Below, one piece after another: positions 925 through 16,867 of a DNA stretch of 53,332 nt. The notes under the pieces were generated by a model, which was not told the origin of the DNA, did not search any database, and saw only the letters and a list, made by a program, of their open reading frames with translations. Position numbers and translations under genes: made by a program. Origin of the DNA: an uncultured Chromatiaceae bacterium (lineage in GTDB: Bacteria > Pseudomonadota > Gammaproteobacteria > Tenderiales > Tenderiaceae). Position 1 is the stretch's first letter. Each line of letters opens with the position of its first letter. The stretch is taken from NCBI GenBank assembly GCA_945787735.1, contig CALZIQ010000008.1, positions 1 to 53,332 of the forward strand, in the 5' to 3' direction.

Positions 925-2103
925 ATGAATAATGTTTCGGTGATGATTTCGGATGTGATCAAAAGCGTACTTAAAGGGGTAGACCCCCCCGTGCCCTTGC
1001 ACGAGCCTAGTTTTATCGGGCGTGAATGGCAATTGGTGAAAGATTGTCTCGATTCCGGTTATGTCTCTTCTGTTGGGCAGTATGTTGACCGCTTCGAACA
1101 CGAGCTTGCCGCATATTTAGGCGCAGAGCATGTCGTGGCAGTGGTGAATGGAACGGCTGCACTGCATATCAGTCTGCTGCTTGCAGGGGTTATGCCGGGT
1201 GATGAGGTTATAGTGCCGACGCTGAGCTTTGTCGCCACGGCCAATGCTGTTAGTTATTGCGGGGCTATTCCCCACTTTTCTGACTCAGAAAGGCATACGC
1301 TCGGCATGGATGCGGTAAAATTGGGGCAATATTTTGCCGCAATTTTGCAGCAGGATGGTGATCGATGGCTGAACCGAAATACAGGACGTCGTGTGGCCGC
1401 CATCGTGCCCATGCACACCTTCGGGCATCCCGTCGACATGGATGCGCTTAACGAGGTTGCCGGACAATATGGCTTGCCGGTGATCGAGGATGCCGCCGAG
1501 TCATTGGGAAGTCGTTATAAAGACCGGATGGCCGGGACCCTCTCTTCACTCGCTGCGATCAGTTTCAATGGCAACAAGACCATCACCACTGGCGGTGGCG
1601 GAGCGATTGTGATTCGCGATAAAGCGTTAGCATCAAGAGCTAAGCATTTGACAACGACCGCCAAGATGCCGCATCAGTGGCAGATTAAGCACGACGAGAT
1701 TGGCTTTAACTATCGCATGCCAAATTTAAATGCCGCCTTGGGCTGTGCCCAGTTGGAGCAATTACCACGTTTTATCAAACAGAAGAGAGAGCTGGCTGAA
1801 CAATATCAGCAGGCATTTCAGGATGTTGATGGGGTAGAGTTCTTTCACGAGCCTAACTTTGCCCAAAGTAACTATTGGCTCAATGCCTTGTTAATCGACG
1901 AAGCGACTTATGACCGTAATGAGCTGTTGGCGCAATTGAATGCTGAAGGCATTATGGCGCGGCCGGCCTGGGCACTGCTGCATTCGTCGCCCATGTATCA
2001 ACACTGCCCCCGTATGGATTTGAGCATGGCGCAGGACTTAGAGCGGCGCCTTATCAATATTCCCAGTAGCCCGTTTTTGGTTGAAGGAAATAAGGATGCG
2101 TAA
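925..2103 (+). CDS. legC: LegC-family PLP aminotransferase
   Basis: A 392-residue DegT/DnrJ/EryC1-fold aminotransferase expected to convert the 4-keto sugar nucleotide made by LegB to the 4-amino sugar in legionaminic acid synthesis. The N-terminal block with VPLHEPSFIGREW and SGYVSSVGQYVDRFE is typical of the LegC subfamily. VNGTAALHISLLLAGV and DEVIVPTLSFVATANAV follow, and SFNGNKTITTGGGG carries the candidate PLP-binding Lys218. Length is normal. The start at 925 has a weak ribosome site; an ATG at 943 would shorten it by six residues. Its stop overlaps the legG start. Confidence 0.92.
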   Translation: MNNVSVMISDVIKSVLKGVDPPVPLHEPSFIGREWQLVKDCLDSGYVSSVGQYVDRFEHELAAYLGAEHVVAVVNGTAALHISLLLAGVMPGDEVIVPTLSFVATANAVSYCGAIPHFSDSERHTLGMDAVKLGQYFAAILQQDGDRWLNRNTGRRVAAIVPMHTFGHPVDMDALNEVAGQYGLPVIEDAAESLGSRYKDRMAGTLSSLAAISFNGNKTITTGGGGAIVIRDKALASRAKHLTTTAKMPHQWQIKHDEIGFNYRMPNLNAALGCAQLEQLPRFIKQKRELAEQYQQAFQDVDGVEFFHEPNFAQSNYWLNALLIDEATYDRNELLAQLNAEGIMARPAWALLHSSPMYQHCPRMDLSMAQDLERRLINIPSSPFLVEGNKDA

Positions 2104-3247
2104 GGTCTGCGTGGTCTCCAGCAACCGGGCAGACTACGGCTTGCTTTATTGGCCCATGCGTACCTTGCAGCAAGATGAGGCATTTGAGTTGCAGGTCGTA
2201 GTGACTGGCTCTCATCTTTCCACCGAGCATGGCATGACCGTAAACCAGTTTGCACAAGACGGCTTTGATGTTTCGGCTCAGGTTGATTTAGCGTTGAGTC
2301 AAGATTCTGCAGTGGCTGTGACAAAGGCTATCGGTACCGGGCTGATAGGTTTTGCCGATGTGTTTGCCGACTTGAAGCCGGATTTGCTACTGGTATTGGG
2401 TGACCGCTATGAAATGCTTGCGGCAGTGTCGGCCGCGTTGGTTGCCAGGATTCCGGTTGCCCATCTGTTTGGTGGTGATACTACCGAAGGGGCGTTTGAC
2501 GAATCTATCCGCCATGCCATTACCAAGATGTCGCATCTGCATTTTGTCAGTAACGAACTCTCTGCTGAGAGAGTTCGGCAAATGGGAGAAAACCCGGAAC
2601 ATATTTATAATACGGGCGCTACCAGCATCGATAATATTCGCCGTGCTACCTATAAGAACAGGGATGAATTTTTTTCGGCAATAGAGTTTACGCCACGTAA
2701 CCATAATCTGTTAATCACCTTTCATCCCGTTACCCTTGATTCTGTTGCTTCCGTTGTTCAACTACAGCAGTTGTTGATTGCTCTGGACGCCTTGGGTGAT
2801 GAGGTCGGATTGATATTCACCAAAGCAAATGCCGACACAGAGGGGGAGTGTTTGAATGAGGTGATTCAGTTGTTTGTCGCAGAGCGGGAGAATGCCAGAC
2901 TTTATGATGCGCTCGGTCCCCTCTACGTTAGCGCTCTAAGACATGTCGATTTGGTGGTGGGCAACTCATCAAGTGGTCTATATGAAGCACCTGCTCTGGG
3001 TGTGCCTACAGTGAATATTGGAGATCGACAGAAAGGCCGTTTGCAGGCTTCATCTGTTGTCAATTGTGAGACCGAGAGCAAGGCCATCCTTGAATCAATC
3101 AAATCAGTCATGGGCAAACACTATGATAAGGTCGATCATCCTTTTGGTGATGGCCATAGCGCTGAAAAGATTATGGCCGCCTTAAAGGCTATTCCTAACT
3201 TTCAGGCCTTGCTGAAAAAACACTTTTTCATGATGGCGGAACACTAA
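2096..3247 (+). CDS. legG: UDP-N-acetyl sugar 2-epimerase (hydrolysing), NeuC/LegG family
   Basis: A 383-residue protein of the hydrolysing UDP-GlcNAc 2-epimerase family. In legionaminic acid synthesis LegG releases the nucleotide and inverts C2 to give the 6-deoxy-mannose-type sugar used by LegI. VCVVSSNRADYGLLYWPMR at the N-terminus, LVLGDRYEMLAA, HLFGGDTTEGAFDESIRHA and VGNSSSGLYEAPALGVPTVN are family motifs. The ATG at 2096, eight bases before the legC stop ends and preceded by a purine-rich AAGGAAATAAGG, is preferred over the upstream TTG at 2081. Its stop overlaps the legI ATG (TAATG). Confidence 0.92.
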   Translation: MRKVCVVSSNRADYGLLYWPMRTLQQDEAFELQVVVTGSHLSTEHGMTVNQFAQDGFDVSAQVDLALSQDSAVAVTKAIGTGLIGFADVFADLKPDLLLVLGDRYEMLAAVSAALVARIPVAHLFGGDTTEGAFDESIRHAITKMSHLHFVSNELSAERVRQMGENPEHIYNTGATSIDNIRRATYKNRDEFFSAIEFTPRNHNLLITFHPVTLDSVASVVQLQQLLIALDALGDEVGLIFTKANADTEGECLNEVIQLFVAERENARLYDALGPLYVSALRHVDLVVGNSSSGLYEAPALGVPTVNIGDRQKGRLQASSVVNCETESKAILESIKSVMGKHYDKVDHPFGDGHSAEKIMAALKAIPNFQALLKKHFFMMAEH

Positions 3248-4326
3248 TGGCGGATCGTGTTTATGTGATAGCCGAGGCGGGCGTGAATCATAATGGCTCA
3301 TTGGAGCTGGCGCTTGAGCTAGTGGATGCGGCTAAACAGGCGGGTGCTGATGCGGTCAAGTTCCAGAGTTTTAAGGCTGAACAGCTTGTGAGCAAGTCGG
3401 CACAGAAGGCAGATTATCAGAAGGCACAGACCGGTAGTGGTGAGACTCAATATGACATGCTGCGTCGTCTTGAGCTTTCACTAGAAGACCATCAACGCCT
3501 GCATGATCATTGCAGCGAACGTGAAATTGACTTCATCTCTTCGCCGTTTGATATGCCAAGCCTGGTCATGCTAGTTGAACGCTTTAATCTGCCGGTGTTG
3601 AAATTAGGCTCAGGCGAGCTGACCAATGCGCCTTTGCTGTTAGCCATTGCCCAGATTGGAAAAAAGCTGATTCTATCAACCGGCATGGCGACTCTAGCTG
3701 AGGTAAAAGAGGCGCTGGCAGTATTGGCTTTCGGTTATTTAAATATGAAAGATCTGGTCAGTGAGAAAGGCTTTATAAAGGCATATAACTCAAATGAGGG
3801 GCATGCCTTATTGGCTGAAAAGGTAACGCTGCTGCATTGCACCACTGAATACCCGGCACCGCTTGCCGACGTTAACCTGAGGGCAATGGATACACTTAAG
3901 CATGAGTTTGGCCTGGCGGTCGGTTATAGCGATCATACCGAGGGAGGTGTAATCGCGCACGCTGCGGTGGCAAGGGGGGCAAGCGTGATCGAAAAACATT
4001 TCACCTTGGATAGAAACCTGCCGGGCCCAGATCACAAGGCTTCACTGGAACCTGCTGAATTAAAGCTGATGATTGATGGTATTCGCCAAATCGAGATTTG
4101 CTTGGGCGACGGTGAAAAACGATTGATGGCATCGGAGGCCAAAAATCGCGAGCTGGTAAGAAAAAGCCTGGTGACGTTGCTGCCAGTCAAAAAGGGTGAA
4201 GTTTTCAACGAGGAAAACCTGGCAGTAAAACGGCCGGGCAATGGCGTACAGCCGATCCATTATTGGCAGTGGCTCGGGCGCAAGGCCGAGCGTGATTATG
4301 AAGCTGATGAGGTCATCCAGGAATGA
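3247..4326 (+). CDS. legI: N,N'-diacetyllegionaminate synthase, NeuB family
   Basis: A 359-residue NeuB-family synthase that condenses the C6 sugar from LegG with phosphoenolpyruvate to form the nine-carbon acid. The TIM-barrel part begins with VIAEAGVNHNGSLELAL and ADAVKFQSFKAEQLVS and includes ISSPFDMPSLVML, LKLGSGELTN, LILSTGMATLAEV, GYSDHTEG and VIEKHFTLD. Residues from about 290 onward form the SAF (antifreeze-like) domain with RKSLVTLLPVKKGEVF. NeuB, PseI and LegI cannot be separated rigorously by eye; the LegB/LegC/LegG context favours legionaminate. It overlaps both neighbours by one to four bases. Confidence 0.92.
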   Translation: MADRVYVIAEAGVNHNGSLELALELVDAAKQAGADAVKFQSFKAEQLVSKSAQKADYQKAQTGSGETQYDMLRRLELSLEDHQRLHDHCSEREIDFISSPFDMPSLVMLVERFNLPVLKLGSGELTNAPLLLAIAQIGKKLILSTGMATLAEVKEALAVLAFGYLNMKDLVSEKGFIKAYNSNEGHALLAEKVTLLHCTTEYPAPLADVNLRAMDTLKHEFGLAVGYSDHTEGGVIAHAAVARGASVIEKHFTLDRNLPGPDHKASLEPAELKLMIDGIRQIEICLGDGEKRLMASEAKNRELVRKSLVTLLPVKKGEVFNEENLAVKRPGNGVQPIHYWQWLGRKAERDYEADEVIQE

Positions 4327-4937
4327 CGCGTCCAGTGATTTTGCTCGGTGCGGGAGGACATGCCAAAGTCCTGCTGGAGACATTACGTCTCAATGGCGTT
4401 GAGGTGCTTGGTTATGTGGCGCCAGCGCCGTCTGCCGAGCCAATAGATGCCAAATATCTCGGTGACGACGATCAAGTCGCTATGTTTGCTGCTGATGAGG
4501 TCGAGCTGGTGAATAGCGTCGGAGGATTGACGCTGGATCGTCGTCAGCGTCTATATGACAACTTTAAGGCGCGCAGTTACCATTTTTCCCCGGTCATTCA
4601 TCCGTCGGCGGTGATTTCAAACAGTGCCTCTCTAGGTGAAGGCGTGCAGATCATGGCGGGCGCTGTAATCCAGGCGGGGACGTGCCTTGCAGACAATGTG
4701 ATTATCAATACCCGTGCAAGCGTTGATCATGATTGTTACATAGACTCGCATTCTCATATAGCGGTTGGCGCAGTTCTTGCTGGGAATATACATGTTGGAG
4801 AAAAGACGCTAATTGGTGCCGGAAGTATCGTTATTCAAGGTATCGCCATTGGCATTGAAAGTGTTGTTGGCGCCGGGGCCGTTGTGGTCCATGACGTACC
4901 GGCGGGCAAAACAGTTGTAGGCGTTCCGGCGCGTTAA
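4323..4937 (+). CDS. NeuD/PglD-family sugar N- or O-acetyltransferase (candidate LegH)
   Basis: A 204-residue trimeric left-handed beta-helix acyltransferase. An N-terminal nucleotide-sugar-binding fold begins with VILLGAGGHAKVLLETL. Hexapeptide repeats start at about residue 90, and VDHDCYIDSHSHIAVGA contains His136, the likely catalytic base as in PglD. It ends with the usual AGKTVVGVPAR. In this cluster it is the only candidate for the LegH step (acetyl-CoA acetylation of the 4-amino group), but NeuD-type O-acetylation of the finished acid is also possible. Its start overlaps legI by four bases (ATGA). Confidence 0.88.
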   Translation: MTRPVILLGAGGHAKVLLETLRLNGVEVLGYVAPAPSAEPIDAKYLGDDDQVAMFAADEVELVNSVGGLTLDRRQRLYDNFKARSYHFSPVIHPSAVISNSASLGEGVQIMAGAVIQAGTCLADNVIINTRASVDHDCYIDSHSHIAVGAVLAGNIHVGEKTLIGAGSIVIQGIAIGIESVVGAGAVVVHDVPAGKTVVGVPAR

Positions 4938-4957: not shown

Positions 4958-5137
4958 ATGAGTGAGTTTCTGAAAGGTACCTACGATGTTGAGAAAGAGA
5001 TCGTAGATGAAGCGAGTGAGGAATCAGCCAAAGATGAGTTCAAGAAAAAAGCATTGAACTCCATCGGCGGTAGCATGGTTTTCGTCGAACGCGAAAAATA
5101 TGTCTGGAACGGTGATGAGGAAGAGTCTCCGGAATAA
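4958..5137 (+). CDS. Small acidic protein of unknown function (59 aa)
   Basis: I do not recognise this gene. The ATG at 4958 is preceded by GAGGAG at 4944-4949 with good spacing, better than the GTG at 4943 that the open frame also allows. The product is 59 residues, very acidic at both ends, with a central GGSMVFVEREKYVWNG segment that looks foldable, and no signal peptide or membrane segment. It lies 20 bp after the acetyltransferase and 27 bp before the DUF115 gene, apparently in the same operon. It could be a small partner of the DUF115 or radical SAM protein. A peptide substrate for the radical SAM enzyme is conceivable, but nothing in the sequence marks a core peptide. Confidence 0.7.
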   Translation: MSEFLKGTYDVEKEIVDEASEESAKDEFKKKALNSIGGSMVFVEREKYVWNGDEEESPE

Positions 5138-5164
5138 ACGGTAAGTAAGGAGATGTAAAAGTCA

Positions 5165-6169
5165 ATGGATTTTGACGGCCTAGTAAGTAGCATTCCCGAT
5201 ATTGGCTATGACTGGCATAAAGAGGCGATAGTACGGAACTCCTCTGAGAATGCCCAACATATCCAAAAGAAAGTATCTGACCTGAAGCATGTCGACGGGG
5301 ATAAAAGCAACAGTGCGATTGTAGTCAGTGCCGGTCCGAGCTTGCACTACAACGATTCATTGAAAATGTTGGCATCGTCCGATTACAAAGGCACTGTGAT
5401 CGCGATTGATGGCTCCTATGTCAAATGCCTCAAAGCAGGTGTCATCCCCGATTATGTTATTACCCTCGACCCTCATCCAACACGGATTGTCAGGTGGTTT
5501 GGTGATCCCGATTTCGAAAAGAACATGGAAGGCGATGACTATTTCTCCCGCCAGGATCTGGATATCGATTTTCGCGAAAACAGCCTGCGCCAGAACCAAG
5601 CGAATATTGAGCTGGTCAACGAGTACGCCGGCAAGTCCAAGTTAATCATCGCCTCAACCGCACCTGCTAACCTTGTGCATCGGGCTGAACAGGCGGGTTT
5701 TGATATGTACTGGTGGATGCCGCTGGTAGACAACCCTGATATCGAGGGCAGTTTGACGCGCCAGATATATAAGCTCACCAAACTGCCGGCCATCAATACC
5801 GGCGGCAACGTTGGTACGGCTGCCTGGGTGTTTGCCCAGTTTTGGTTAAAGATAAAAAAAATCGCTGTGATCGGAATGGATCTTGGTTACCGGCTCGATC
5901 TTCCCTACCACATGACACAGGGTTATCCCGAGTTGGTGCAGATGCTGGGTGAAAAGAACGTCACCAGCGAGCTGTTCCCTGAAATAGAAAATCCAGATAC
6001 CGGTGAACGCTGTTACACCGACCCAACGTATTACTGGTATCGCAAAAACACTTTGGATCTAATTGCCAATTCAGATGCCACGCTCTACAACTGTAGCGGC
6101 GGTGGCATCCTGTTTGGCGATGGAGTAGTGACTATGAGTTTGCAAAAATATTTGACCGAAAATGGCTAA
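5165..6169 (+). CDS. DUF115 / 6-hydroxymethylpterin pyrophosphokinase MptE-like protein, short form
   Basis: A 334-residue protein of the DUF115 fold shared by archaeal MptE and the core of bacterial Maf proteins. Visible motifs are AIVVSAGPSLHYND (residues about 55-70), PDYVITLDPHP, a TGGNVGTAAWVFA helix and AVIGMDLGYR. The large Maf encoded at 12282-14825 has parallel motifs (AGGPSLDALL, PDICVAVDPYP, GGADFCFS), so the two are distant paralogues. Being within a legionaminic acid operon, it may be a second glycosyltransferase or a sugar-modifying enzyme. A pterin role seems unlikely from context. Its stop overlaps the radical SAM start by eight bases. Confidence 0.85.
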   Translation: MDFDGLVSSIPDIGYDWHKEAIVRNSSENAQHIQKKVSDLKHVDGDKSNSAIVVSAGPSLHYNDSLKMLASSDYKGTVIAIDGSYVKCLKAGVIPDYVITLDPHPTRIVRWFGDPDFEKNMEGDDYFSRQDLDIDFRENSLRQNQANIELVNEYAGKSKLIIASTAPANLVHRAEQAGFDMYWWMPLVDNPDIEGSLTRQIYKLTKLPAINTGGNVGTAAWVFAQFWLKIKKIAVIGMDLGYRLDLPYHMTQGYPELVQMLGEKNVTSELFPEIENPDTGERCYTDPTYYWYRKNTLDLIANSDATLYNCSGGGILFGDGVVTMSLQKYLTENG

Positions 6170-7733
6170 GATTCTATTCATTAACCCAGTAGTGCGTGAA
6201 GAGGATGTACCTCGGCATATCCCCTATGGCATTGCATTGCTCGCAGCGATTGCCCGGGATGAAGGCCATCAGGTGCAGGTTTATGACGCCAATGCCTGGC
6301 GCAAAGGCTTTGATGTAGTCCGGCAAGTGCTTGCCGCTGATGACTGGGATGTGGTGGCAATCGGAGGTTTGACAACCACCTATAATTTCATCAAAGAGAC
6401 CTGCCGCTTGGCGGGGGAGGTTGCCAAAGACAGCTTGCTGATCGCCGGTGGAGGTTTTCTCACTAGCATGCCGCGCGAGATCATGAGCTGGGTGCCGGAG
6501 ATTGATTTAGGTGTAATCGGTGAGGCTTTTGTCACCTTTCCTGAAGTGTTGAAGAAGATTGATGCGGGCGATCTCGACTGGCGTTCCACACTTGGTGTGG
6601 TACATCGCGAGAGTGACGGCAAGATAGTCGTCAACAAAGAGCGACCCAATATTAATGATCTAGATACTATTCCGTGGCCAGCCTGGGAGTTCTTCCCGCT
6701 GGAAGAAGTGTATTTTAAAAATTCATCATCGCTGTTCAGTGAAGAGGCCTATTACGCCCAAAAACGTATCGATATTAATGGCAGTTATGGCTGTAATCTG
6801 ATTTGCAGATATTGCTGGCATTTGGGCACAACTGGCGACATGGTGGTCAGAGAAGATCCAGAAGGCAATAACGATGTCGCCTTTACCTATGGTCGAAATA
6901 TTCGCTATCACTCGCCCGATTACATTATCGAGATGGTTAAACATCTCAAGGCCGAGTACAACATCGATTACGTCAATTTTCTCGATGAAAACCTGATGAC
7001 CATGGATGTCTATAGCAAGCGTACCTGGTTGCAAGAGTTGTGTGAAAAGTGGGTTGAGAGTGGTCTGCAGCCAGATTGTCGCCGTCTGGGTGTGCCCTAT
7101 GATCAAGTTGAAAATAAGGGTGTTTTCTGGAGTGGTACCAGCCATGCCTCACTGCATACACCGGAAATCCTGAAGCTGATGTACAAAGCCGGGTGCACCC
7201 ATCTGGTGTATGGCTTGGAGTCATTTGATAAAAAAATCCTCAAGAACCTCGGCAAAGGCTCAACACCGGCAAGGAATGAGTCGAGCGTTTCTGTTTGCAT
7301 GGAGTCGGGAATCAAGCCGATTCCAAATATCATCATCGGTTTTCCGGAAGAGAGTTTTGACAGTGTTCGAGCCACGATTGAATCGCTGATTAAACTGGGT
7401 ATCCACGCCAAGCCCCACTTTGCCACTGCCTACCCGGGTTCAGAGTGGTATTACCGTTACAAGGACTCTATCGCGGCTCAATATGATGGTGACCTGGAGA
7501 AATATGTGCTGGACTTGGGGGATGCCACCAAAATCACGGCAACTATATCGCACAAGTTTTCCGGCATGGATCTGCTAGGCCTGCAAGAGATTGTGGCGCA
7601 AAGAGATTTGCGCTTGCTTGATCTAGCCGAACGGCATTGGGGCCGTTCTGATGAGGCAATCGACCCCATCGTCAAACCGCAGCTTAGTCATAGCATTATT
7701 CAGAATAAGACCAAAACTCCTTTACAGGGATGA
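6162..7733 (+). CDS. B12-binding-domain radical SAM protein
   Basis: A 523-residue enzyme with an N-terminal cobalamin-binding-like Rossmann domain (residues 1-150: ILFINPVVREED, YGIALLAAIARDEGH, DVVAIGGLTTTY, LIAGGGFLTS). The radical SAM barrel carries the cluster motif Cys211-x3-Cys215-x2-Cys218 in NGSYGCNLICRYCWHLG. Later GCTHLVYGLESFDKKILKNLGKG and IIIGFPEES are standard for this superfamily. The usual DxHxxG cobalamin ligand motif is not evident, so B12 may bind base-off without it. Such enzymes often methylate unactivated carbons or rearrange sugars. The position among leg and acetamidino genes suggests tailoring of the nonulosonic acid, but the substrate is unknown. It overlaps the DUF115 gene. 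Confidence 0.9.
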   Translation: MAKILFINPVVREEDVPRHIPYGIALLAAIARDEGHQVQVYDANAWRKGFDVVRQVLAADDWDVVAIGGLTTTYNFIKETCRLAGEVAKDSLLIAGGGFLTSMPREIMSWVPEIDLGVIGEAFVTFPEVLKKIDAGDLDWRSTLGVVHRESDGKIVVNKERPNINDLDTIPWPAWEFFPLEEVYFKNSSSLFSEEAYYAQKRIDINGSYGCNLICRYCWHLGTTGDMVVREDPEGNNDVAFTYGRNIRYHSPDYIIEMVKHLKAEYNIDYVNFLDENLMTMDVYSKRTWLQELCEKWVESGLQPDCRRLGVPYDQVENKGVFWSGTSHASLHTPEILKLMYKAGCTHLVYGLESFDKKILKNLGKGSTPARNESSVSVCMESGIKPIPNIIIGFPEESFDSVRATIESLIKLGIHAKPHFATAYPGSEWYYRYKDSIAAQYDGDLEKYVLDLGDATKITATISHKFSGMDLLGLQEIVAQRDLRLLDLAERHWGRSDEAIDPIVKPQLSHSIIQNKTKTPLQG

Positions 7734-7755: not shown

Positions 7756-9090
7756 ATGGATGTATATCAACCAAAGAATACGCAGGTTAATCAAGCAGAG
7801 TTTCTGGTTAACTATGGCTCTGAGTCAGACACATTAGAGGCGAAGTATGGTCTGCCTAGCGAAGTAAAGTATTGTAGGAAGTGTGTCATCTCCAACCAAC
7901 GCCCCAATTCTGCCGTTGAGTTTAAACATACCTCCAATACTAAAAAGTCGACTATCGGTTTTGATGAAGAGGGTGTCTGTGATGCATGCCGTCAGGCCGA
8001 AAAAAAGCAGCAACACATTGATTGGGTGCAGCGAGAAGAGGAGTTAAGAGAGCTGTGCGATCGTTATCGTAAAGATGATGGTTCTTATGATTGCCTGGTG
8101 CCAGGCTCCGGTGGTAAAGACAGCTTTTTTGCCGCCCATATGTTGAAGTACAAATTCGGCATGAATCCATTGACAGTGACCTGGGCGCCGCATATCTATA
8201 CAGATTGGGGCTGGCAAAATATGCAGGCATGGATTCACGCCGGTTTCGATAATTACCTGCTAACGCCCAATGGGCGTATACATAGATTAATTACACGCTT
8301 GGCTGTCGAAAATCTGTTCCACCCATTTCAGCCTTTTATTTTTGGGCAGAAATCGTATGCGCCCAAAATGGCCGCGCTGTTTAATATTCCACTTGTTTTT
8401 TACGGTGAGAATGAAGCTGAGTACGGTAATCCAGTCAATGATAACGATGATGCGCGGCGTAGCTGGGAATATTTTACCGGCGCTGATCAGTCAGAGATTT
8501 ATCTCGGTGGCACATCTATCCGTGACCTGAAGGAGAGTTTTGGTGTTAAGGATGTTGACCTCGATCCTTATTTGCCTGCCGATCCAGAGCTGATCAGCAA
8601 GAAGAGTATAGATGTTCGTTATCTTGGGTATTACCTTAAATGGCATCCACAAGGGGCCTATTATTACGCAGTGGAGAATGGTGGCTTTCAGCCATCACCC
8701 GAACGAACGCCAGGTACGTACAGCAAATATAATGGTATCGATGACAAGGTGGATGATTTTCATTACTACACCACCTACATCAAGTTCGGTATTGGTCGCG
8801 CCAGCTATGATGCTGCCCAAGAAATCCGCAATGATGAAATTACCCGTGAAGAGGGTGTCGCCCTAGTGAGAAAATATGATGGGGAATTCCCTGATCGTTT
8901 TGCTGACGAGGTATTTCGTTACCTAAGTATCCCGGAAAAAGAGTTTCCCATTGCCAGCAAGATGTTTGAACAGCCGAATGTGGACAGGGACTATTTTAAT
9001 GCTTTGGCCGATACTTTTCGTTCACCCCATTTGTGGCGTCATGAAAATAGCCAATGGCAGTTAAGGCACACTGTATTTGACTGTAGCTAG
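7756..9090 (+). CDS. N-acetyl sugar amidotransferase (PseA/WbpG family)
   Basis: A 444-residue ATP-pyrophosphatase-type amidotransferase. The N-terminus has two cysteine pairs that probably bind zinc (YCRKC near residue 36 and CDAC near 76). The PP-loop SGGKDS lies at residues 118-123. The family converts an N-acetyl group to an acetamidino group on nonulosonic acids or uronamides, with ammonia from a HisF/HisH pair, as with WbpG in Pseudomonas O-antigen and PseA/PtmG in Campylobacter flagellin sugars. The HisF2 and HisH2 genes follow directly. The start at 7756 has GGGAG upstream. Whether it is specific for legionaminic acid is inferred. Confidence 0.92.
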   Translation: MDVYQPKNTQVNQAEFLVNYGSESDTLEAKYGLPSEVKYCRKCVISNQRPNSAVEFKHTSNTKKSTIGFDEEGVCDACRQAEKKQQHIDWVQREEELRELCDRYRKDDGSYDCLVPGSGGKDSFFAAHMLKYKFGMNPLTVTWAPHIYTDWGWQNMQAWIHAGFDNYLLTPNGRIHRLITRLAVENLFHPFQPFIFGQKSYAPKMAALFNIPLVFYGENEAEYGNPVNDNDDARRSWEYFTGADQSEIYLGGTSIRDLKESFGVKDVDLDPYLPADPELISKKSIDVRYLGYYLKWHPQGAYYYAVENGGFQPSPERTPGTYSKYNGIDDKVDDFHYYTTYIKFGIGRASYDAAQEIRNDEITREEGVALVRKYDGEFPDRFADEVFRYLSIPEKEFPIASKMFEQPNVDRDYFNALADTFRSPHLWRHENSQWQLRHTVFDCS

Positions 9091-9101: not shown

Positions 9102-9872
9102 ATGAGAAATGTTCGCCTCATTGCCCGCCTCGATGTTAAAGCGCCAAACCTGGTTAAAGGTATCCAGATGGAAGGGTTACGAAAGTTCGGTGATCCCTAC
9201 AAGTTTGCCAAGCGTTACTATGATGAAGGTATTGATGAGATTCTCTATATCGATATAGTGGCTAGCCTGTATGAACGAAACAGTCTGTTAGATCTGATTG
9301 AACAGACGACAAAAGATATCTTTGTGCCCATTACCGTGGGTGGCGGTTTAAGAAGTATTGAAGATGTTGCTGCAGCATTAAAAGCTGGGGCGGATAAAGT
9401 CGCGATCAATACCGCAGCCATTAAGAATCCATCGCTTATTTCGGAAGTTTCACAACGTTTTGGCTCCCAGTGCATGGTGTTATCTATCCAAGCTAAAAAG
9501 GATGGAAACCGCTGGGAAGCTTATTATGACTGCGGGCGGGAGCATAGTGATTTGGATGCGGTTGAGTGGGCGGTTCGTGGGGAAGAACTTGGGGCAGGGG
9601 AGATTCTGCTTACCTCGGTTGATCGCGAAGGAACGGCTAAAGGTATGGAGCTGGAGTTGATAAAGGCTGTTAGCGGCTCAGTATCTATACCGGTAATTGC
9701 TTCTGGTGGCATTGGGCAACTTGAACATTTCTCTGAAGCAGTATCAGCAGGCGGCGCGGATGCCATTGCCATGGCACATGTGCTGCATTACGGCCATTTC
9801 TCGGTTGATGAGATCCGTGATTTTGCACGGCAGCAAGCTATTCCAGTGCGCATCTCTGGAGACGACTTATGA
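9102..9872 (+). CDS. hisF2: AglZ/HisF2-family acetamidino modification protein
   Basis: A 256-residue TIM-barrel relative of imidazole-glycerol-phosphate synthase subunit HisF. RLIARLDVKAPNLVKGIQMEG at the N-terminus, DEILYIDIVAS, VPITVGGGLRS, ADKVAINTAA, GEILLTSVDREGT and IPVIASGGIG follow the HisF pattern. The start resembles the WbuZ/HisF2 sugar branch rather than true histidine enzymes. It should channel ammonia from HisH2 to the amidotransferase encoded upstream. It is 11 bp after that gene and overlaps hisH2 by four bases. No other histidine biosynthesis gene is in the window, which supports the sugar role. Confidence 0.9.
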   Translation: MRNVRLIARLDVKAPNLVKGIQMEGLRKFGDPYKFAKRYYDEGIDEILYIDIVASLYERNSLLDLIEQTTKDIFVPITVGGGLRSIEDVAAALKAGADKVAINTAAIKNPSLISEVSQRFGSQCMVLSIQAKKDGNRWEAYYDCGREHSDLDAVEWAVRGEELGAGEILLTSVDREGTAKGMELELIKAVSGSVSIPVIASGGIGQLEHFSEAVSAGGADAIAMAHVLHYGHFSVDEIRDFARQQAIPVRISGDDL

Positions 9873-10516
9873 GCCGTCGTGTGGTGGTGATTGATTATGG
9901 TATGGGTAATCTGCTCAGTGTCCAGCGTGGCTTGGAGGCGTGTGGTGCCGAGGTTGAGATCAGTGCTGATGCTGAAGTTGTCGCCCGGGCAGACCGGTTG
10001 GTGCTGCCGGGTGTGGGTGCTTTTGAATCGGGTATGCATGAGTTAAAGGTTCGTGGTCTGGTCAATGCCATTGGTGAGTTTGTCGCGCGTGAGCGACCCT
10101 TGTTGGGTATTTGTCTCGGCATGCAGATGCTGCTGAGCGAGAGTGAAGAGTTTGGTCAGCATAAGGGGCTGAATCTAATCCCTGGCCGGGTAGTAAAAAT
10201 ACCTGATTATGATAATAGTGGCGCTATTGTACGTAAGATTCCTCATATTGGCTGGAGTGCAATTAAATACCCTGAGGGTAGAACAGACTGGTCTGGATCG
10301 TTGTTGCAAAATACGAAAGATGTTGAGTTTTTTTACTTCGTCCATTCATTTATGGCGGTGTCTGAAAATTCTGAGAATATTTTGGCGCAGTGTGATTATA
10401 GTGGTCTCAGGATCAATGCCGTGGTGTGTCGGGACAATGTGATTGGTAGTCAGTTTCATCCCGAAAAAAGTGGCAACAGCGGTCTAAAAGTTTTACAAAC
10501 ATTCCTCGAACTTTAA
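9869..10516 (+). CDS. hisH2: HisH2 glutamine amidotransferase subunit for acetamidino formation
   Basis: A 215-residue class I glutamine amidotransferase of the HisH type. It starts with VVVIDYGMGNLLSVQRGLE, has the nucleophile cysteine in LLGICLGMQMLL, and the His and Glu of the triad in SQFHPEKSG near the C-terminus, so it looks catalytically complete. It hydrolyses glutamine and passes ammonia through HisF2. The ATGA overlap with hisF2 indicates translational coupling, as expected for a stoichiometric complex. As with hisF2, the neighbours point to nonulosonic acid acetamidination rather than histidine synthesis. Confidence 0.9.
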   Translation: MSRRVVVIDYGMGNLLSVQRGLEACGAEVEISADAEVVARADRLVLPGVGAFESGMHELKVRGLVNAIGEFVARERPLLGICLGMQMLLSESEEFGQHKGLNLIPGRVVKIPDYDNSGAIVRKIPHIGWSAIKYPEGRTDWSGSLLQNTKDVEFFYFVHSFMAVSENSENILAQCDYSGLRINAVVCRDNVIGSQFHPEKSGNSGLKVLQTFLEL

Positions 10517-10540: not shown

Positions 10541-11257
10541 GTGGCACAGTATGGAAAAATCTTGGCAATCATTGCCGCACGTGAAGGCTCTAAGGGTTTG
10601 CCACAAAAGAATGTGTTGGACTGTGCCGGCAAGCCATTGATTGCCTGGACTGTCGAGGCGGCTCTGCAATCTAAGTATATTAATCAAACGCTGGTGAACA
10701 CTGACTCTCAGGCAATAGCCGATGTGGCCGAGCAATTTGGCGCCTGGATACCGTTCTTGAGGCCGGCTGAGCTGGCCCAAGATGAGTCGAGCATAATTGA
10801 TGTTATTAACGACGTGATTATGCGACTGAAAATATCAAAGCAACAATTTGATTATGTGATGTTGCTGCAACCAACCTCGCCTCTGCGTACTGCCAAGCAC
10901 ATAGATGAGGCAATTGAAAAATATTTCTCAACCAAGATGTCAGATAAAGACACGCTGATTTCTGTCACCAAGGTAGATAGTAAGGCGCTTTGGGTATTGG
11001 GTGAAGATGATGACAGTGGATATATATTCAATCACTTTGATGTCAATCTGTCGGATAATTCAAGGCGGCAGGCTTTACCTGATTGTTATGTGCCTAATGG
11101 TGCTATCTATCTGGCCAGGGTTGATGGTTTTCAGGGCTTTTATGGTAAGCAAACACGCTCGTATCTGATGGACGAGATTTCCTCGCTGGATATTGACTAT
11201 CAGGCCGATCTTGACCGGGCCGATGACTACCTTCGCAATGGACCCAGATCTAAATAG
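10541..11257 (+). CDS. legF: CMP-legionaminate synthetase / acylneuraminate cytidylyltransferase
   Basis: A 238-residue CMP-sialic-acid-synthetase-family enzyme that activates the nonulosonic acid with CTP, the last step before glycosyl transfer. The CTP-binding signature IIAAREGSKGLPQKN is at residues 9-23, and QPTSPLRTAKHIDEAI and SLDIDYQADLDRADDYL are family motifs. The start is a GTG at 10541; the nearby ATG at 10551 is out of frame. It ends the plus-strand sugar operon, only 17 bp from the convergent legB stop, and no terminator hairpin is visible between them. Confidence 0.9.
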   Translation: MAQYGKILAIIAAREGSKGLPQKNVLDCAGKPLIAWTVEAALQSKYINQTLVNTDSQAIADVAEQFGAWIPFLRPAELAQDESSIIDVINDVIMRLKISKQQFDYVMLLQPTSPLRTAKHIDEAIEKYFSTKMSDKDTLISVTKVDSKALWVLGEDDDSGYIFNHFDVNLSDNSRRQALPDCYVPNGAIYLARVDGFQGFYGKQTRSYLMDEISSLDIDYQADLDRADDYLRNGPRSK

Positions 11258-11274: not shown

Positions 11275-12285
11275 CTAAGTGTTATAGAGATTAGCCTTGT
11301 AGGCACGTAGGTTGTCCGGATTACTTAACCATTCGATTGTCTTGGTGAGACCGTTTTTTAAGCCCTCTATGCCTGGGTATTGAGGTGTCCAACCAAGCAG
11401 TTCTTTTGCCTTGCTGTTATCTGCCCACAAACGTTCAACTTCGCTGTTTTTGGGGCGGGTTCTTATTTCTTCCGTCTCTATGGTGATGTCTTGATTCATC
11501 AATTCTGCAATCATGGCTACCGTATCGCCAACAGATATTTCAAAATTGCTGCCGAGGTTGATTGTTTCTCCCAGTGATTTTTCAGACTCAGCCGCGGCTA
11601 TGAAGCCACTCACAGTGTCTGCCACATAGTTGAAATCACGCGTTGGGCTGAGTGAGCCAAGTTTAATGCTTTTATTGCCATTGGCGATTTGTGTGATCAC
11701 GGTGGGAATAACCGCGCGTGCCGATTGGCGCGGCCCATAGGTGTTGAATGGTCTAACGATGCTAACAGGTGTTTCAAATGAATTGTAAAACGAAAAGGCA
11801 AGCTGGTCGGCGCCGATCTTTGTGGCTGAATAGGGTGATTGTCCTTGCAGTGGGTGCTCTTCTGTAATTGGGACAAACTGTGCAGTACCATAAACTTCAC
11901 TGGTAGAGGTGTGGACAAACTTTTCTATCTCTAGATCACGTGCGGCTTGTAAAAGGTTTAATGTGCCGCGGATATTCGTGTCGACGTAGCTATCAGGCGA
12001 GTGATAGGAGTAGGGGATGCCGATTAAGGCTGCCAAGTGTAGAACCACATCGCAGTCTTTCATGGCGGTGCGTACGCCATGGGGATCGCGGATATCGCCG
12101 GCAAAGACATCTACTTTCTCTTTAATGTCGTCGGGCGATTGGTCCAGCCAACCCCAGTGTCCGAAAGAGTTATAAAAAACAAAAGCACGTACATCGTGGC
12201 CGTGCCGTACTAATTTCTCGGTGAGGTGTGAGCCAATAAAGCCATCGGCACCTGTGATGAGGATTTTTTTGCCCTGTAGATTCAT
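11275..12285 (-). CDS. legB: NAD-dependent 4,6-dehydratase LegB
   Basis: A 336-residue extended short-chain dehydrogenase/reductase. ILITGADGFIGSHLTEKL is the NAD-binding Rossmann motif. VLHLAALIGIPYSYHSPDSY, HTSTSEVYGTAQ, SPYSATKIGADQLA (the YxxxK catalytic pair) and RPFNTYGPRQSARAVIPT identify the LegB branch. It catalyses the first committed sugar-nucleotide step, giving the 4-keto-6-deoxy sugar for LegC. The true start is the ATG at 12285, not the upstream in-frame codon at 12378, because it follows the maf stop in an ATGA overlap and begins right before the Rossmann motif. It is on the strand opposite the rest of the pathway. Confidence 0.93.
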   Translation of the reverse strand: MNLQGKKILITGADGFIGSHLTEKLVRHGHDVRAFVFYNSFGHWGWLDQSPDDIKEKVDVFAGDIRDPHGVRTAMKDCDVVLHLAALIGIPYSYHSPDSYVDTNIRGTLNLLQAARDLEIEKFVHTSTSEVYGTAQFVPITEEHPLQGQSPYSATKIGADQLAFSFYNSFETPVSIVRPFNTYGPRQSARAVIPTVITQIANGNKSIKLGSLSPTRDFNYVADTVSGFIAAAESEKSLGETINLGSNFEISVGDTVAMIAELMNQDITIETEEIRTRPKNSEVERLWADNSKAKELLGWTPQYPGIEGLKNGLTKTIEWLSNPDNLRAYKANLYNT

Positions 12286-14825
12286 CTGTTGCTTGTCTGT
12301 GATTGATTCAAAGAGCTTAACATAGCCTTGGCAGTGTGGTTGTCTGGGTCCTTGCTGAGAATATAGTTCATCGCCCATTCAACACCTTCATCTGATCCGT
12401 ATTGATGATAGATTTTACCTAGCTTCATCATGCTGTTTAGGTCATCGGGATTGGCCAGTAGATATTCGGTATAGATATCGACAGCATTGTCCACATCACC
12501 GGTGGCTTGAAGTAATTCAGCATACATCGGCGTGTACGTTGAGCTAATATTTGATAGGCCTTTCAATACTTCAAGTGCAGCGCCGACATTTTCATCTTTT
12601 ATATGAATCTCAAACAAGCGCTGGAGGGCATCGATCTGTGCGGGTCCTTCGGCAACGCCTTGGTAAATTTCAATCGCTAGTGCTGTTTCAGCATGCAGTT
12701 CCGCTAGATAGCCCTGTAACAGGGGAATGAATTGTCTCGCTATCTCAGCTTCACAGCGTTCTTTTACGCCTTTTGGTGGTGTTTGTTTTGTTTCACGGTG
12801 CTCTTCTAGTCCGTCCAGCAGGTTTTGTAATCCAACTTCATCCTGGCACTTGAAGTATTCTTGAGCCCTAGCGTTTAAGCCCTCTAGTTTGGCTTCGTTC
12901 TCAATACCCTTAAGGTAGTGCTGAGTGAGCTCCTCCAACGAGTCATCAAAGCTGTCCTGGAATGTTTGCAAAGTCCGTCGTTCTTCCGCTGGCAATTGGC
13001 TGACATAATCTGAGTGATGCTCTGCCCAGTGGGTCGCTCGCCCTGGTTGTTTGTCCTCATTCCACTGGTCAATCAAGCGTTGCACGTTGGGATTGGGTTT
13101 TTCTTCCTCAAGGCGGCATAGGGTACGGCTGCGAGCATGCTGTAAAATAACGATAAGTTCTTTGGCGGTATCAACAAAGGATTGAAAGTAAACCTGGTTG
13201 TTTTCTTTGAGATCTTGCTCACTTTGATCGTGATGATGGAGAGTGAGCACGAAGCGAGCCAAACCATAATTTTTGATAAGTTTAACTGTGCCGGCGTACT
13301 TTTCTTTGAATTGTTTCTCGATACTGTTCACTTTTGTATTGCTATGGAAGCGGGCTTCCTTCTCAACTTTTTCGAACACCTTATTACTATGATCTAAGGC
13401 CTCCTTGGCAAGTGATTTGATAGATCTTAGTTCCGCTAGTACGCGATCTAGCTCCTTTAGCACCTCTTTATAAAAACGTGTTCGCGCGCTGCTATCGTCA
13501 GCAGGTAAGCTATCGGCGATGATTTCCGAAGCAGGTTTTTCTAACGCTTCAATCTGGATAGAATCCAGTGGGATGTGTTCCACGTGGGGTAGACGCATAG
13601 AACCCGGTGCCGGATTGATAACCTTACAGCCTCGGTGAATGGCATCTTCAGCTTGTACATCAATGACTCTTGCAGAGGTCAAAAAGGCGTGGATTGTGTC
13701 AGCCATCATGCCGCTATTGGTTTCGACTCGCTGGTCTCCAAGCATGGGGCGAGGCCCAAGTGAGTGTTCGGCGGAGCCGCTTGCATGGGTGTGGCCTGTT
13801 TGACTGAAGCAAAAGTCGGCTCCCCCTAGGATAAGCTGTGTGACGCCAGCATTCACGGCGAGAGCGAAGGCGTTATTAGTGACTGTCGCCCCTAGGGATG
13901 GCGGATAATTTTCTGGCTCCAGCGGCGTTGTCCAAGGATAGCGCGGCCCTGTATAGGCCTTTTCTCCTCCCCAGCTTGACAATAAATTGGAGCATAAATG
14001 GTATTCATTCACTAACAGTGTGCCATCCTGAAATTCAAGCATTTCTCGGCTGACATTTAGAATGATGGGGTAGGGGTCGACGGCCACACAGATATCAGGT
14101 TGGATGCCAGCCTGAATTAAGGTATGACTAATTCGAGAGACTGCGATCACTAACAGGTCTTGGCGGTGTTGTCGCACCCAGGGCAGAAGCGCATCCAGTG
14201 ATGGACCCCCGGCCAGGACGACGGCAGTCTTACCCCGGAAGCTGTCCTTCAGGCAAATGGCAGGAACTTGGTTTTCCGTCAGATTCTCGATTTGGCGTAG
14301 GATGAACTCACGGTTGTCGATACCTGTTTTATATGTCTGGAGGATATATTCGTACTCTTCCCTGAGTTTTCGCCACATAGGTAGATATTCGCCGTAATTG
14401 CCATGAACTACCGCCATAGACCGGATAAGGGCAAGGCGGCCGCGTATCGCATAATCGCGCATGTCCATTTTTGTTATGCCCCGTTCCTGCCAATCATCGG
14501 GTGTGGAGACAACAAGTTCATCCTTTGGATCGTCCATGTTCACCAGTAGTTCTTGAACTTGTGGCAACTCTACAAACAGGTAGCGGCTGCCCTTTGGTAC
14601 TCCCTGCATCTTAATGTATTGGTAGAGTAGGCCGCTGTCTGTGCCGGCGATAACGTAAAAGGTATTTTTCTTGAAGAGTGAATCGCCAAAATGTGTTCGA
14701 AACACGGTGCTGGCATCCGTACCTTGAAATGCATTGCGGTTGATGGCGAAAAGATAATGCTCACCAAATGCGTTGCTGGCAGTGCTGCCCAAATCGATTT
14801 GTGGAGATAGGGTAGTTTCAGTCAA
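12282..14825 (-). CDS. maf: Maf-family motility accessory factor, flagellin nonulosonic acid glycosyltransferase candidate
   Basis: An 847-residue protein with the DUF115 core: AVVLAGGPSLDALLPW near residue 205, DICVAVDPYPIIL, TNNAFALAVNAGVTQLILGGADFCFSQTGHTHASGS. Maf proteins transfer pseudaminic or legionaminic acid to flagellin serine and threonine residues in the cytoplasm. Residues about 440-670 are long charged helices, probably coiled coil. The C-terminal 150 residues look like TPR repeats (AGLxxxxxxxDxAxxxY style, including NAVDIYTEYLLANPDD). The start is a TTG at 14825 with GGGAG eight bases upstream. It is coupled to legB and divergent from the flagellins. Confidence 0.9.
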   Translation of the reverse strand: MTETTLSPQIDLGSTASNAFGEHYLFAINRNAFQGTDASTVFRTHFGDSLFKKNTFYVIAGTDSGLLYQYIKMQGVPKGSRYLFVELPQVQELLVNMDDPKDELVVSTPDDWQERGITKMDMRDYAIRGRLALIRSMAVVHGNYGEYLPMWRKLREEYEYILQTYKTGIDNREFILRQIENLTENQVPAICLKDSFRGKTAVVLAGGPSLDALLPWVRQHRQDLLVIAVSRISHTLIQAGIQPDICVAVDPYPIILNVSREMLEFQDGTLLVNEYHLCSNLLSSWGGEKAYTGPRYPWTTPLEPENYPPSLGATVTNNAFALAVNAGVTQLILGGADFCFSQTGHTHASGSAEHSLGPRPMLGDQRVETNSGMMADTIHAFLTSARVIDVQAEDAIHRGCKVINPAPGSMRLPHVEHIPLDSIQIEALEKPASEIIADSLPADDSSARTRFYKEVLKELDRVLAELRSIKSLAKEALDHSNKVFEKVEKEARFHSNTKVNSIEKQFKEKYAGTVKLIKNYGLARFVLTLHHHDQSEQDLKENNQVYFQSFVDTAKELIVILQHARSRTLCRLEEEKPNPNVQRLIDQWNEDKQPGRATHWAEHHSDYVSQLPAEERRTLQTFQDSFDDSLEELTQHYLKGIENEAKLEGLNARAQEYFKCQDEVGLQNLLDGLEEHRETKQTPPKGVKERCEAEIARQFIPLLQGYLAELHAETALAIEIYQGVAEGPAQIDALQRLFEIHIKDENVGAALEVLKGLSNISSTYTPMYAELLQATGDVDNAVDIYTEYLLANPDDLNSMMKLGKIYHQYGSDEGVEWAMNYILSKDPDNHTAKAMLSSLNQSQTSNR

Positions 14826-15204: not shown

Positions 15205-15903
15205 ATGGCTGCTAGTGTAATTAACACGAATACAATGTCGTTGAATGCTCAACGACATTTGAATAAAAACTCCCTCAGCTTGGCAACATCCGTGTCGCGT
15301 TTGTCCTCTGGTCTGCGTGTCAACAGTGCACGTGACGATGCGGCTGGCCTGGCGGTGGGGATGTCTTTAGAGTCGAGTGTGCGCTCGCTTAGCGTACAGA
15401 TTCGAAATCAGGCAGACAATATCTCCACCAACCAAACCTTAGACGGTGGTTTGGGCGTGGCGACAGATATTCTGCAACGAATGGGTGAGCTGGCAGTACA
15501 GGCGCTTGGGACTAACGGTGCTGCTCAGGCATCAAAAATCCAGGTGGAATACGCTGCCTTAAGTTCTGAATTTGCCAATATTACAGGTGTCACCGCACCA
15601 GGTGGGAGTGTTGGTACGGTTGCTGATGCATCTGCAGCCTATGCGCTGATCTCCACCCGCTTGGGTGAGGTTGCGGGTGCTCGCGCATCTCTGGGTGCGG
15701 CGATCTCTGTTGCCGAATTCACCATCCAGCGGCTTGAAACGCAGCGCGAGAATGATTCAGCTGCGCGTAGTCGGATCATGGATGCAGATTTTGCCATGGA
15801 GACTGCGAATCTGACCCGTGGCCAGATCCTGCAACAGGCAGGTACGGCGATGGTGGCTCAGTCCAATCAGATCCCGAATAACGTGTTGTCTCTATTGGGA
15901 TAA
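15205..15903 (+). CDS. fliC: Flagellin 1 of 4
   Basis: A 232-residue short flagellin. The D0/D1 N-terminal part (MAASVINTNTMSLNAQRHL, SRLSSGLRVNSARDDAAGLAV) and C-terminal part (ARSRIMDADFAMETANLTRG, QILQQAGTAMVAQSNQ, VLSLLG end) are canonical. Between residues about 125 and 160 lies the only strongly variable part, rich in Ser, Thr, Ala and Gly, where surface-exposed glycosylation would be expected. Domains D2/D3 are absent, as in many polar flagellins. The ribosome site is TAGGAG. It carries the best sigma-28 promoter of the set. Flagellin 1 differs from its copies mostly in the variable loop. Confidence 0.97.
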   Translation: MAASVINTNTMSLNAQRHLNKNSLSLATSVSRLSSGLRVNSARDDAAGLAVGMSLESSVRSLSVQIRNQADNISTNQTLDGGLGVATDILQRMGELAVQALGTNGAAQASKIQVEYAALSSEFANITGVTAPGGSVGTVADASAAYALISTRLGEVAGARASLGAAISVAEFTIQRLETQRENDSAARSRIMDADFAMETANLTRGQILQQAGTAMVAQSNQIPNNVLSLLG

Positions 15904-15913
15904 CAATAACAAG

Positions 15914-16001
15914 CAGGGAATAGCCGAATTTCAGGCAAGGAGTAGCCAAACTTAAAACAGGGAATAGCATTATTATAGGCATGGAGTAGCCAACTTTAGG
16001 A
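15914..16001 (+). repeat. 44-bp direct repeat, two copies, between flagellins 1 and 2
   Basis: CAGGGAATAGC begins at 15914 and again at 15958, and GGAGTAGCCAA begins at 15939 and again at 15983; both give a period of 44 bases. The spacer after flagellin 3 has one related copy (GCAGGGATTAGCC near 17673). No sigma-28 promoter is visible in this spacer. Confidence 0.8.
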
Positions 16002-16106
16002 GCGGTGAATGTTTCTCAGCAGAGATATATCCGCTAAATGTAGTTTACCTCCCGCTAGACGTGTTTACTTCACGCAAGCGGGGGGTAAGAAATAGGAGTT
16101 ATAGCA
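16001..16106 (+). promoter_or_regulatory. Conserved two-hairpin 5' leader RNA of flagellin 2
   Basis: Hairpin 1 pairs AGCGG (16001-16005) with CCGCT (16031-16035). Hairpin 2 pairs TTTACCTCCCGCT (16044-16056) with AGCGGGGGGTAAG (16077-16089), partly through G-U pairs, with an inner CGTG/CACG stem. The ribosome site TAGGAG follows directly. Confidence 0.7.
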
Positions 16107-16805
16107 ATGGCTGCTAGTGTAATTAACACGAATACAATGTCATTGAATGCCCAACGGCATTTAAATAAAAATTCCCTTAACTTGGCGACCTCAGTGTCGC
16201 GTCTGTCTTCTGGTCTGCGCGTGAATAGTGCGCGTGACGACGCGGCTGGCCTGGCGGTAGGGATGTCTTTAGAGTCGAGTGTGCGCGCGCTTAGCGTACA
16301 GATCCGAAATCAGGCGGACGTCATCTCCACCAACCAGACTGTGGATGGTGGTTTGGGCGTGGCGACGGATATTTTGCAACGCATGAGTGAATTAGCAGTG
16401 CAGGCGCAAGGTACTAACGGCAACGCTGAGGCCTCAAAGATTCAGGTGGAATATGATGCCCTGGGTGCTGAGCTCGGCAATATAGCTGGGGTGAGTACAC
16501 CTGGCGGTACCTTGGCCACGGTTGCTGGTGCAGTCTCAGCCTTTCAGTTGGTTTCCACCCGGATGGGAGAAACCGCGGGTGCTCGGGCTTCCTTAGGTGC
16601 GGCGATTTCGGTTGCCGAGTTCACCATCCAACGGCTTGAAACGCAGCGCGAGAATGATTCTGCTGCCCGTAGTCGGATCATGGATGCTGATTTTGCCATG
16701 GAAACTGCGAATCTGACCCGTGGCCAGATCCTGCAACAGGCGGGTACGGCGATGGTGGCTCAGGCCAACCAGCTCCCGAATAACGTGTTGTCTCTCTTAG
16801 GATAG
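16107..16805 (+). CDS. fliC: Flagellin 2 of 4
   Basis: A 232-residue flagellin almost identical to flagellin 1 over the terminal domains, with its own variable loop (residues about 125-160, containing AGVSTPGGTLATVAG). No sigma-28 promoter is recognisable in the 203-bp spacer before it, so it is probably read through from flagellin 1. A GC-rich hairpin follows it, suggesting the end of a two-gene unit. The ribosome site is TAGGAG. Export through the flagellar pathway and assembly into the filament are expected; the loop serines and threonines are candidate sites for Maf-dependent legionaminic acid. Confidence 0.97.
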   Translation: MAASVINTNTMSLNAQRHLNKNSLNLATSVSRLSSGLRVNSARDDAAGLAVGMSLESSVRALSVQIRNQADVISTNQTVDGGLGVATDILQRMSELAVQAQGTNGNAEASKIQVEYDALGAELGNIAGVSTPGGTLATVAGAVSAFQLVSTRMGETAGARASLGAAISVAEFTIQRLETQRENDSAARSRIMDADFAMETANLTRGQILQQAGTAMVAQANQLPNNVLSLLG

Positions 16806-16820
16806 CAATAGGGTGAAAAT

Positions 16821-16852
16821 GGCCGGTATTAAAGTCTTTCTTTATGCCGGCC
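16821..16852 (+). terminator. GC-rich hairpin after flagellin 2, overlapping the next sigma-28 promoter
   Basis: GGCCGG (16821-16826) pairs with CCGGCC (16847-16852), and the inner TATTAAAG and CTTTATG extend the stem with one bulge. No T tract follows, so a classical intrinsic terminator is uncertain. The stem contains the -35 box and part of the -10 box of the flagellin 3 promoter. Confidence 0.45.
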
Positions 16853-16857
16853 GATAA
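16830..16857 (+). promoter_or_regulatory. Sigma-28 promoter of flagellin 3
   Basis: TAAA at 16830-16833 and a perfect GCCGATAA at 16850-16857 are separated by 16 bases, one more than the ideal. Position relative to the leader matches that of flagellin 1. Confidence 0.8.
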
Positions 16858-16867
16858 AGAAGTCAGG

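Follow-up and report, generated by a model that had tools for sequence, protein, structure and literature searches.

A rare three-gene unit within a legionaminic acid operon that may tailor nonulosonic acids by radical chemistry

A 53,332-nucleotide stretch of DNA from an uncultured Chromatiaceae bacterium (assembly GCA_945787735.1, contig CALZIQ010000008.1, positions 1 to 53,332; hereafter the window) carries a flagellar legionaminic acid operon containing three adjacent genes, which encode an orphan small protein (from a small open reading frame, smORF), a stand-alone DUF115/MptE-like protein, and a B12-binding radical S-adenosylmethionine (SAM) protein (rSAM). Comparison across bacterial genomes identifies this trio as a real conserved unit, and its tie to nonulosonic acids, drawn from genomic context and protein fold, is well supported. 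The trio probably modifies surface sugars by radical chemistry. We lean, with some reserve, toward the reading that it is a transferable cassette that tailors a cytidine monophosphate (CMP)-activated nonulosonic acid, here of the legionaminic acid type, before another enzyme uses the sugar.

All three genes are on the + strand, between the gene for a NeuD-type sugar acetyltransferase (4323-4937, +; TIGR03570 above cut-off) and that for the WbuX N-acetyl sugar amidotransferase of the acetamidino set (7756-9090, +; TIGR03573 above cut-off). The smORF (4958-5137; 59 aa) runs from an ATG at 4958 to a TAA at 5137, and a GGAG-like stretch precedes its start by eye. It is followed by the DUF115 gene (5165-6169; 334 aa; PF01973 in Pfam, E=3.3e-22) and the rSAM gene (6162-7733; 523 aa; PF04055 and PF02310 in Pfam, each E=1.1e-16). 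These coordinates and the Pfam and NCBIfam matches confirm the placement of the trio between acetyltransferase and acetamidino genes that was proposed in an earlier note made from the DNA letters. The same note described the genes as tightly spaced and partly overlapping. All of them are indeed close, with gaps of 20 bp between NeuD and smORF, 27 bp between smORF and DUF115, and 22 bp between rSAM and WbuX, but only the DUF115 and rSAM genes overlap (by 8 bp), the smORF being close yet separate. A scan for promoters and terminators gave no clear excess over shuffled sequences.

Relatives were collected in a one-genome-per-species scan using exact peptide patterns of the window rSAM, an approach that finds close relatives only. 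It returned 58 loci. Three of these (L011, L059, and L060) open at a contig edge, with no DUF115 gene visible, which leaves 55 usable database loci. Gene content was counted by homology; in GC-rich loci, clustering of longest open reading frames (ORFs) misses genes in favour of shadow ORFs. The small gene is present in all 55 loci having DUF115 and rSAM (54 by profile, L033 by tblastn), and the neighbourhood comparison thus upholds the idea that the three genes are conserved together elsewhere. Order and spacing were counted in 57 stretches, comprising the 55 database loci, the window itself, and the genome G338 from the same family. DUF115 lies upstream of rSAM, and a smORF relative upstream of DUF115, in 56 of the 57 by profile and in the 57th (L033) by tblastn. 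Measured by profile, the gap from smORF to DUF115 is <100 bp in 53/56 stretches and that from DUF115 to rSAM is <=50 bp in 53/56. Exceptions are L024, with 305 bp ahead of DUF115; L046, with 219 bp ahead of DUF115 and a 286-aa ORF separating DUF115 from rSAM; L057, with smORF and DUF115 flanking a LegF-like gene; and L021, with 150 bp ahead of rSAM. The 286-aa ORF of L046 (8918-9778) resembles a class I methyltransferase by eye.

Carriers of the trio belong to the Gamma-, Alpha-, and Betaproteobacteria, SAR11, Myxococcota, Bdellovibrionota, Elusimicrobiota, and Chloroflexota. Since these loci had been ascertained via the rSAM gene, a further search was conducted with the smORF profile, which was positive in 10 of 1001 sampled genomes, every one a known trio locus. 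The positives were 2/369 in the window's class (the same two as in the rSAM search), 1/247 in the order around G372 (namely G372), and 7/385 in the class around G383, and among the 1001 genomes no small gene was seen without its partners. On this basis the trio is rare and scattered across bacteria. Phages and viruses were rejected as carriers: tblastn with the rSAM protein gave no match in phages, and no relative was confirmed when IMG/VR was scanned with the rSAM and smORF alignments. Among plasmids, 44 records match rSAM, each with <60% identity; the top-listed match (27%) is only remotely related, and none of the annotated genes around this radical SAM protein bears a DUF115/MptE-like name, the unannotated stretches not having been searched.

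Judged by sequence distances, the trio proteins co-diverge, and the pathway genes do so weakly. Distances correlate with those of rSAM at r 0.65 for DUF115 (55 loci) and r 0.63 for smORF (52 loci), as against 0.33 for LegF, 0.29 for LegI, 0.35 for LegG, 0.37 for NeuD, 0.12 for WbuX, and 0.17 for HisF2. In matched subsets DUF115 stands above LegF, LegI, LegG, NeuD, and WbuX, the bootstrap intervals being wholly positive.

The rSAM protein is, by motif and domains, a predicted B12-dependent radical SAM enzyme. Its cluster cysteines C211, C215, and C218 (CxxxCxxC) are invariant in 56 rows, and PF02310 and PF04055 are both found in 56/56 members, with the B12-binding domain N-terminal. This pair of domains is common to rSAM and the B12-dependent radical SAM enzymes HpnJ, BchE, CysS, and TokK. 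The protein falls far beneath the cut-offs of every named NCBIfam model, including the nearest, HpnJ (87.8 bits, cut-off 577.6) and BchE (86.8 bits, cut-off 481.35), and is assigned to neither. Remote PDB matches include AprD4 ("apramycin biosynthetic oxidoreductase 4"), CysS, and TokK. Both CysS and TokK catalyse methylation, and the substrate of HpnJ is the sugar group of a hopanoid. In the proposed mechanism rSAM would modify an unactivated carbon located in the sugar or in its N-acyl group, with C-methylation the likeliest outcome. The rSAM gene is single-copy in the source genome, which is 88.6% complete and encodes further B12-binding proteins, one of them within a 1230-aa frame, so cobalamin is probably available to the host of the window.

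PF01973 is found in 57/57 members of the DUF115 family, and the structure model of the window protein is of high confidence (predicted local distance difference test score, pLDDT, 92.3; predicted template modeling score, pTM, 0.92). Its best match is Maf of Magnetospirillum (5mu5; Z 21.6, 245 residues, root mean square deviation 3.4), with only the range 238-514 of 5mu5 aligned, followed by the MptE-type HPPK 8sd5 (Z 15.3) and SteA (10.7). The description of this protein as a stripped-down Maf is therefore borne out by the Maf-core fold of the model. The fold of the central PF01973 domain is common to both, but the DUF115 protein lacks the N- and C-terminal Maf domains (334 aa versus 847 aa for the window's own Maf) and does not show the three-domain architecture. 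It also scores only 47.5 bits on NCBIfam PseD, with a cut-off of 670, and is always accompanied, in the loci seen, by the small protein and the radical SAM gene. A likeness to CMP-sialic acid sialyltransferases is seen in the fold (ST8SiaIII, Z 9.2; Cst-I and Cst-II, 7-8, where Z <8 may reflect merely a common arrangement), whereas identity to these enzymes is just 10-17%.

Invariant residues of the DUF115 family are G57 and P58 of a GPSL loop, D102, and P103, and both the GPSL loop and a DP(H/Y) motif recur in the window's own Maf. In Cst-II the GPS loop binds CMP. The family-specific stretch RWFGDP...DDYFxRQD coincides with the region of lowest model confidence, has no counterpart seen in the window's Maf, and may be a partner site. 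According to a published study (PMC11339370), the central Maf domain resembles Cst-II, and a Clostridium botulinum Maf uses CMP donors to place sugars on Ser/Thr; it also works on mini-flagellins, with robust glycosylation reported down to a length of 69 residues. In the proposed cassette the DUF115 protein would bind a CMP-sugar and transfer the sugar. The Maf/sialyltransferase fold would also suit an additional glycosyltransferase that extends the glycan by another nonulosonic acid, with rSAM performing a separate tailoring step. Some loci do lie among polysaccharide-type genes, such as the SAR11 glycan locus L050, which encodes a GT2 glycosyltransferase fused to a cytidylyltransferase domain (17034-18395). 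We consider this arrangement unlikely, as it leaves the obligate small protein and the near-strict DUF115-rSAM pairing unexplained.

The small protein carries an LKG(N/T)(F/Y) motif near its N terminus and (L/I)GGS(I/M)..(F/Y)V......W near its C terminus. In a 54-row alignment G7, G37, G38, and S39 never vary, and conservation reaches 90% or more at L5, K6, N8, F28, A32, V43, and W50; Ser39, within the GGS, is the sole invariant hydroxyl residue. A codon comparison of the window with its close copies in L002-L005 gave low dN/dS (the ratio of nonsynonymous to synonymous substitution rates), with dS saturated in most pairs. Four invariant residues in 54 aligned members together with the low dN/dS place the conservation beyond chance, and on these grounds the smORF encodes a genuine protein under amino-acid constraint. 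Searches of all 54 members against Pfam and NCBIfam, with E up to 10, returned scattered weak matches only, and a PDB profile search (best E 0.74) identified no family. A match to FakA-like_M (E 0.039, 5/54 members) was taken as chance. A phosphopantetheine carrier, considered owing to the GGS, was rejected when no PP-binding family appeared in the Pfam scan.

For the 59-aa protein, a role as tether, acceptor, or subunit is more probable than one in catalysis, and in the cassette proposed here this protein would be bound by one or both enzymes and connect them. It could serve as a non-substrate subunit or chaperone of DUF115 or rSAM, MbtH-like in its logic, while the enzymes act on free or CMP-bound sugar. 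This is a serious contender, if one we would not quite bet on: there is one smORF copy per locus, the protein is strongly conserved at both ends and poorly folded alone in its model, and it co-occurs strictly with both enzymes. A subunit role does not by itself explain why the Ser of Gly-Gly-Ser is the sole invariant hydroxyl, though a binding motif could do so. Rather doubtful, in our judgment, is a role as a nonulosonic acid carrier, in which DUF115 would load the sugar from CMP onto Ser39, rSAM would rebuild it, and reversal or passing-on would yield the modified donor; if true, this would amount to protein-tethered sugar tailoring, as with amino acids and acyl groups on carrier proteins. 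Finally, the smORF might encode the precursor of a peptide natural product that is glycosylated by DUF115, modified by rSAM, and then processed and released. The small gene does come first in the set, its product has a conserved N-terminal motif, and rSAM is distantly similar to models that mature ribosomally synthesized and post-translationally modified peptides. A peptide product is improbable, however, in view of the tight tie to sugar-pathway genes and a C-terminal part that does not vary among species. Nor was a protease or an exporter of the peptidase type seen; the ATP-binding cassette (ABC) gene examined in L050 has only ABC domains and a weak SMC_N match.

The association of the trio with nonulosonic acid genes, also proposed in the earlier note, stands. 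LegI is found in 35/55 loci and a LegF-like gene in 47/55, and among the 28 loci with >8 kb on both sides these counts are 24 for LegI, 22 for LegG, and 26 for LegF-like genes. A LegF-like gene lies <=400 bp from the trio in 36/55 loci (upstream in 20, downstream in 14, and inside in 2; strand shared in 34). When 49 LegF-like rows and that of the window are placed on a tree, the trio-adjacent genes do not form one clade but require 7 label changes. A trio-dedicated LegF clade was therefore rejected; synthetases of different lineages adjoin the trio, and the pairing likely arose more than once. Glycan islands gather unrelated genes, and LegI is absent nearby in 4/28 well-flanked loci, as could be expected if the trio were a passenger unrelated to nonulosonic acid. 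With LegI nearby in the remaining 24, a CMP-sugar synthetase so often within 400 bp, and a sialyltransferase-like fold in the DUF115 protein, we regard a passenger as very improbable.

The tie to the flagellin glycan that the note had drawn did not hold up. In the stretches around the trio a Maf-type gene is found in 10/55 loci and a flagellin in 4/55, so flagellin is not the common target, and a flagellin-only role was rejected on this context; the trio is also found in the Pelagibacteraceae, a non-motile group. The tailored sugar would be used by Maf in the window and by polysaccharide enzymes elsewhere. Three Pelagibacteraceae single-cell genomes (L050, L052, and L053) have the trio beside a LegF-like gene and few other B12-binding proteins (2-3 matches per genome, including the trio). 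This is odd, as the group has usually been characterised as one that does not use B12. A family of ~600 aa occurs near the trio in these three loci (L050 11614-13434, L052 8749-10557, and L053 11615-13402), immediately downstream of rSAM in two of them; its L050 member has no Pfam match. Elsewhere a protein of 411-458 aa is encoded directly downstream of rSAM (L041 11592-12968 and L026 3805-5040), the L041 member again without a Pfam match.

Two related genomes provide a natural comparison. G242, of the same genus, has Maf, LegB, LegC, LegG, LegI, NeuD, LegF, WbuX, HisF2, and HisH2 but not the trio. Its LegF differs from that of the window (37% identity), and two class I methyltransferase genes lie between LegF and WbuX, with a sulfotransferase gene after WbuX (L085 4789-8818). 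The tailoring part of the flagellar island thus seems to vary within the genus. In G338, one strand carries Maf-LegB-LegC-LegG-LegI-NeuD and a nucleotidyltransferase, and the opposite strand carries smORF-DUF115-rSAM-LegF as a separate, facing unit, to which LegF belongs. Identity between G338 and the window is 79% for rSAM, compared to 34% for Maf, 47% for LegG, and 57% for LegI. The island without the trio in G242 and the separate trio unit in G338 together mark the trio as an optional add-on. SAM methyltransferases of the PtmH type occur in legionaminic acid islands, and the two enzymes of G242 would represent such optional methylation; the trio would differ in enzyme class, using radical SAM, DUF115, and a small protein. 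The methyltransferases in the tailoring part of G242 hint at, but do not prove, a sugar-tailoring role for the trio as well.

Several observations weigh against a nonulosonic acid tailoring cassette. The AlphaFold2 model of the smORF product has a pLDDT of 60.6 and a single helix, the protein folding poorly alone, although such a model is as would be expected for a peptide that orders upon binding. The sequence match of the DUF115 protein to the window Maf spans only ~60 residues, and B12 radical SAM enzymes are not all methylating. Among the 16 loci of the HisF2 subset, DUF115 and rSAM correlate at -0.02, a value that does not surpass that of HisF2; we cannot explain this apart from the small size and narrow range of the subset. 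In 19/55 loci no LegF-like gene lies within 400 bp of the trio, and in 8 of these 19 the whole stretch has none. PF03102 is present in 47/50 trio genomes (covering 50 of the 58 loci), but also in 9/14 control genomes, and says little by itself.

The remainder of the island is consistent with legionaminic acid synthesis. The window starts at base 1 of its contig, and its edge truncates a PtmE/LegX-like CBS and nucleotidyltransferase gene (1-798, -), named by its likeness by eye to typed L041 and L050 proteins. Ahead of NeuD, the + strand encodes a LegC-type aminotransferase (925-2103; TIGR04181, 530.8 bits, cut-off 420), a LegG/NeuC-type hydrolysing epimerase (2081-3247; TIGR03568 above cut-off), and a LegI/NeuB-type nonulosonate synthase (3247-4326; TIGR03569 above cut-off). 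WbuX is followed on the same strand by a HisF2/WbuZ-like protein (9102-9872; TIGR03572, 280.3 bits, slightly below the cut-off of 299.7), a HisH2-like glutaminase (9869-10516; TIGR01855 above cut-off), and a LegF-like CMP-nonulosonate synthetase (10541-11257; PseF model, E=7.3e-40, below cut-off), the probable functional partner of the trio. The - strand encodes the LegB 4,6-dehydratase (11275-12378; TIGR04180 above cut-off) and the full-length, 847-aa Maf-type protein (12282-14825; PF01973, E=2e-35, residues 177-342). LegB, LegC, LegG, LegI, NeuD-type, and CMP-synthetase genes are therefore all present, as in a legionaminic acid locus, with the synthetase scoring below the PseF cut-off. The Maf protein has a weak TPR match near its end (residues 774-837), and its frame overlaps that of LegB by 97 bp. 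Further along, 15205-18513 holds four consecutive ORFs of 230-233 aa, the first of which Pfam types as a short flagellin.

The nonulosonic acids that cover flagella and cell surfaces are known to be tailored by acyl-, amidino-, and ordinary methyltransferases. We found no description of the trio or the 59-aa family in the full-text literature (excluding subscription papers and preprints) or in family libraries, and the trio is apparently undescribed as a unit. The Shewanella sfm cluster (SO_3261-3265) was rejected as a described relative, as the available part of PMC3765264 names different enzymes and its main text has 0 occurrences of "radical". If the proposed role is true, the cassette would extend the tailoring of nonulosonic acids to B12 radical chemistry, a reduced Maf core, and a protein family that lacks annotation, with one short gene offering a directly testable handle (deletion or mass shift). 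It would also suggest that a class of surface sugars has gone unseen in phyla as distant as Elusimicrobiota, Chloroflexota, and Pseudomonadota, including SAR11.

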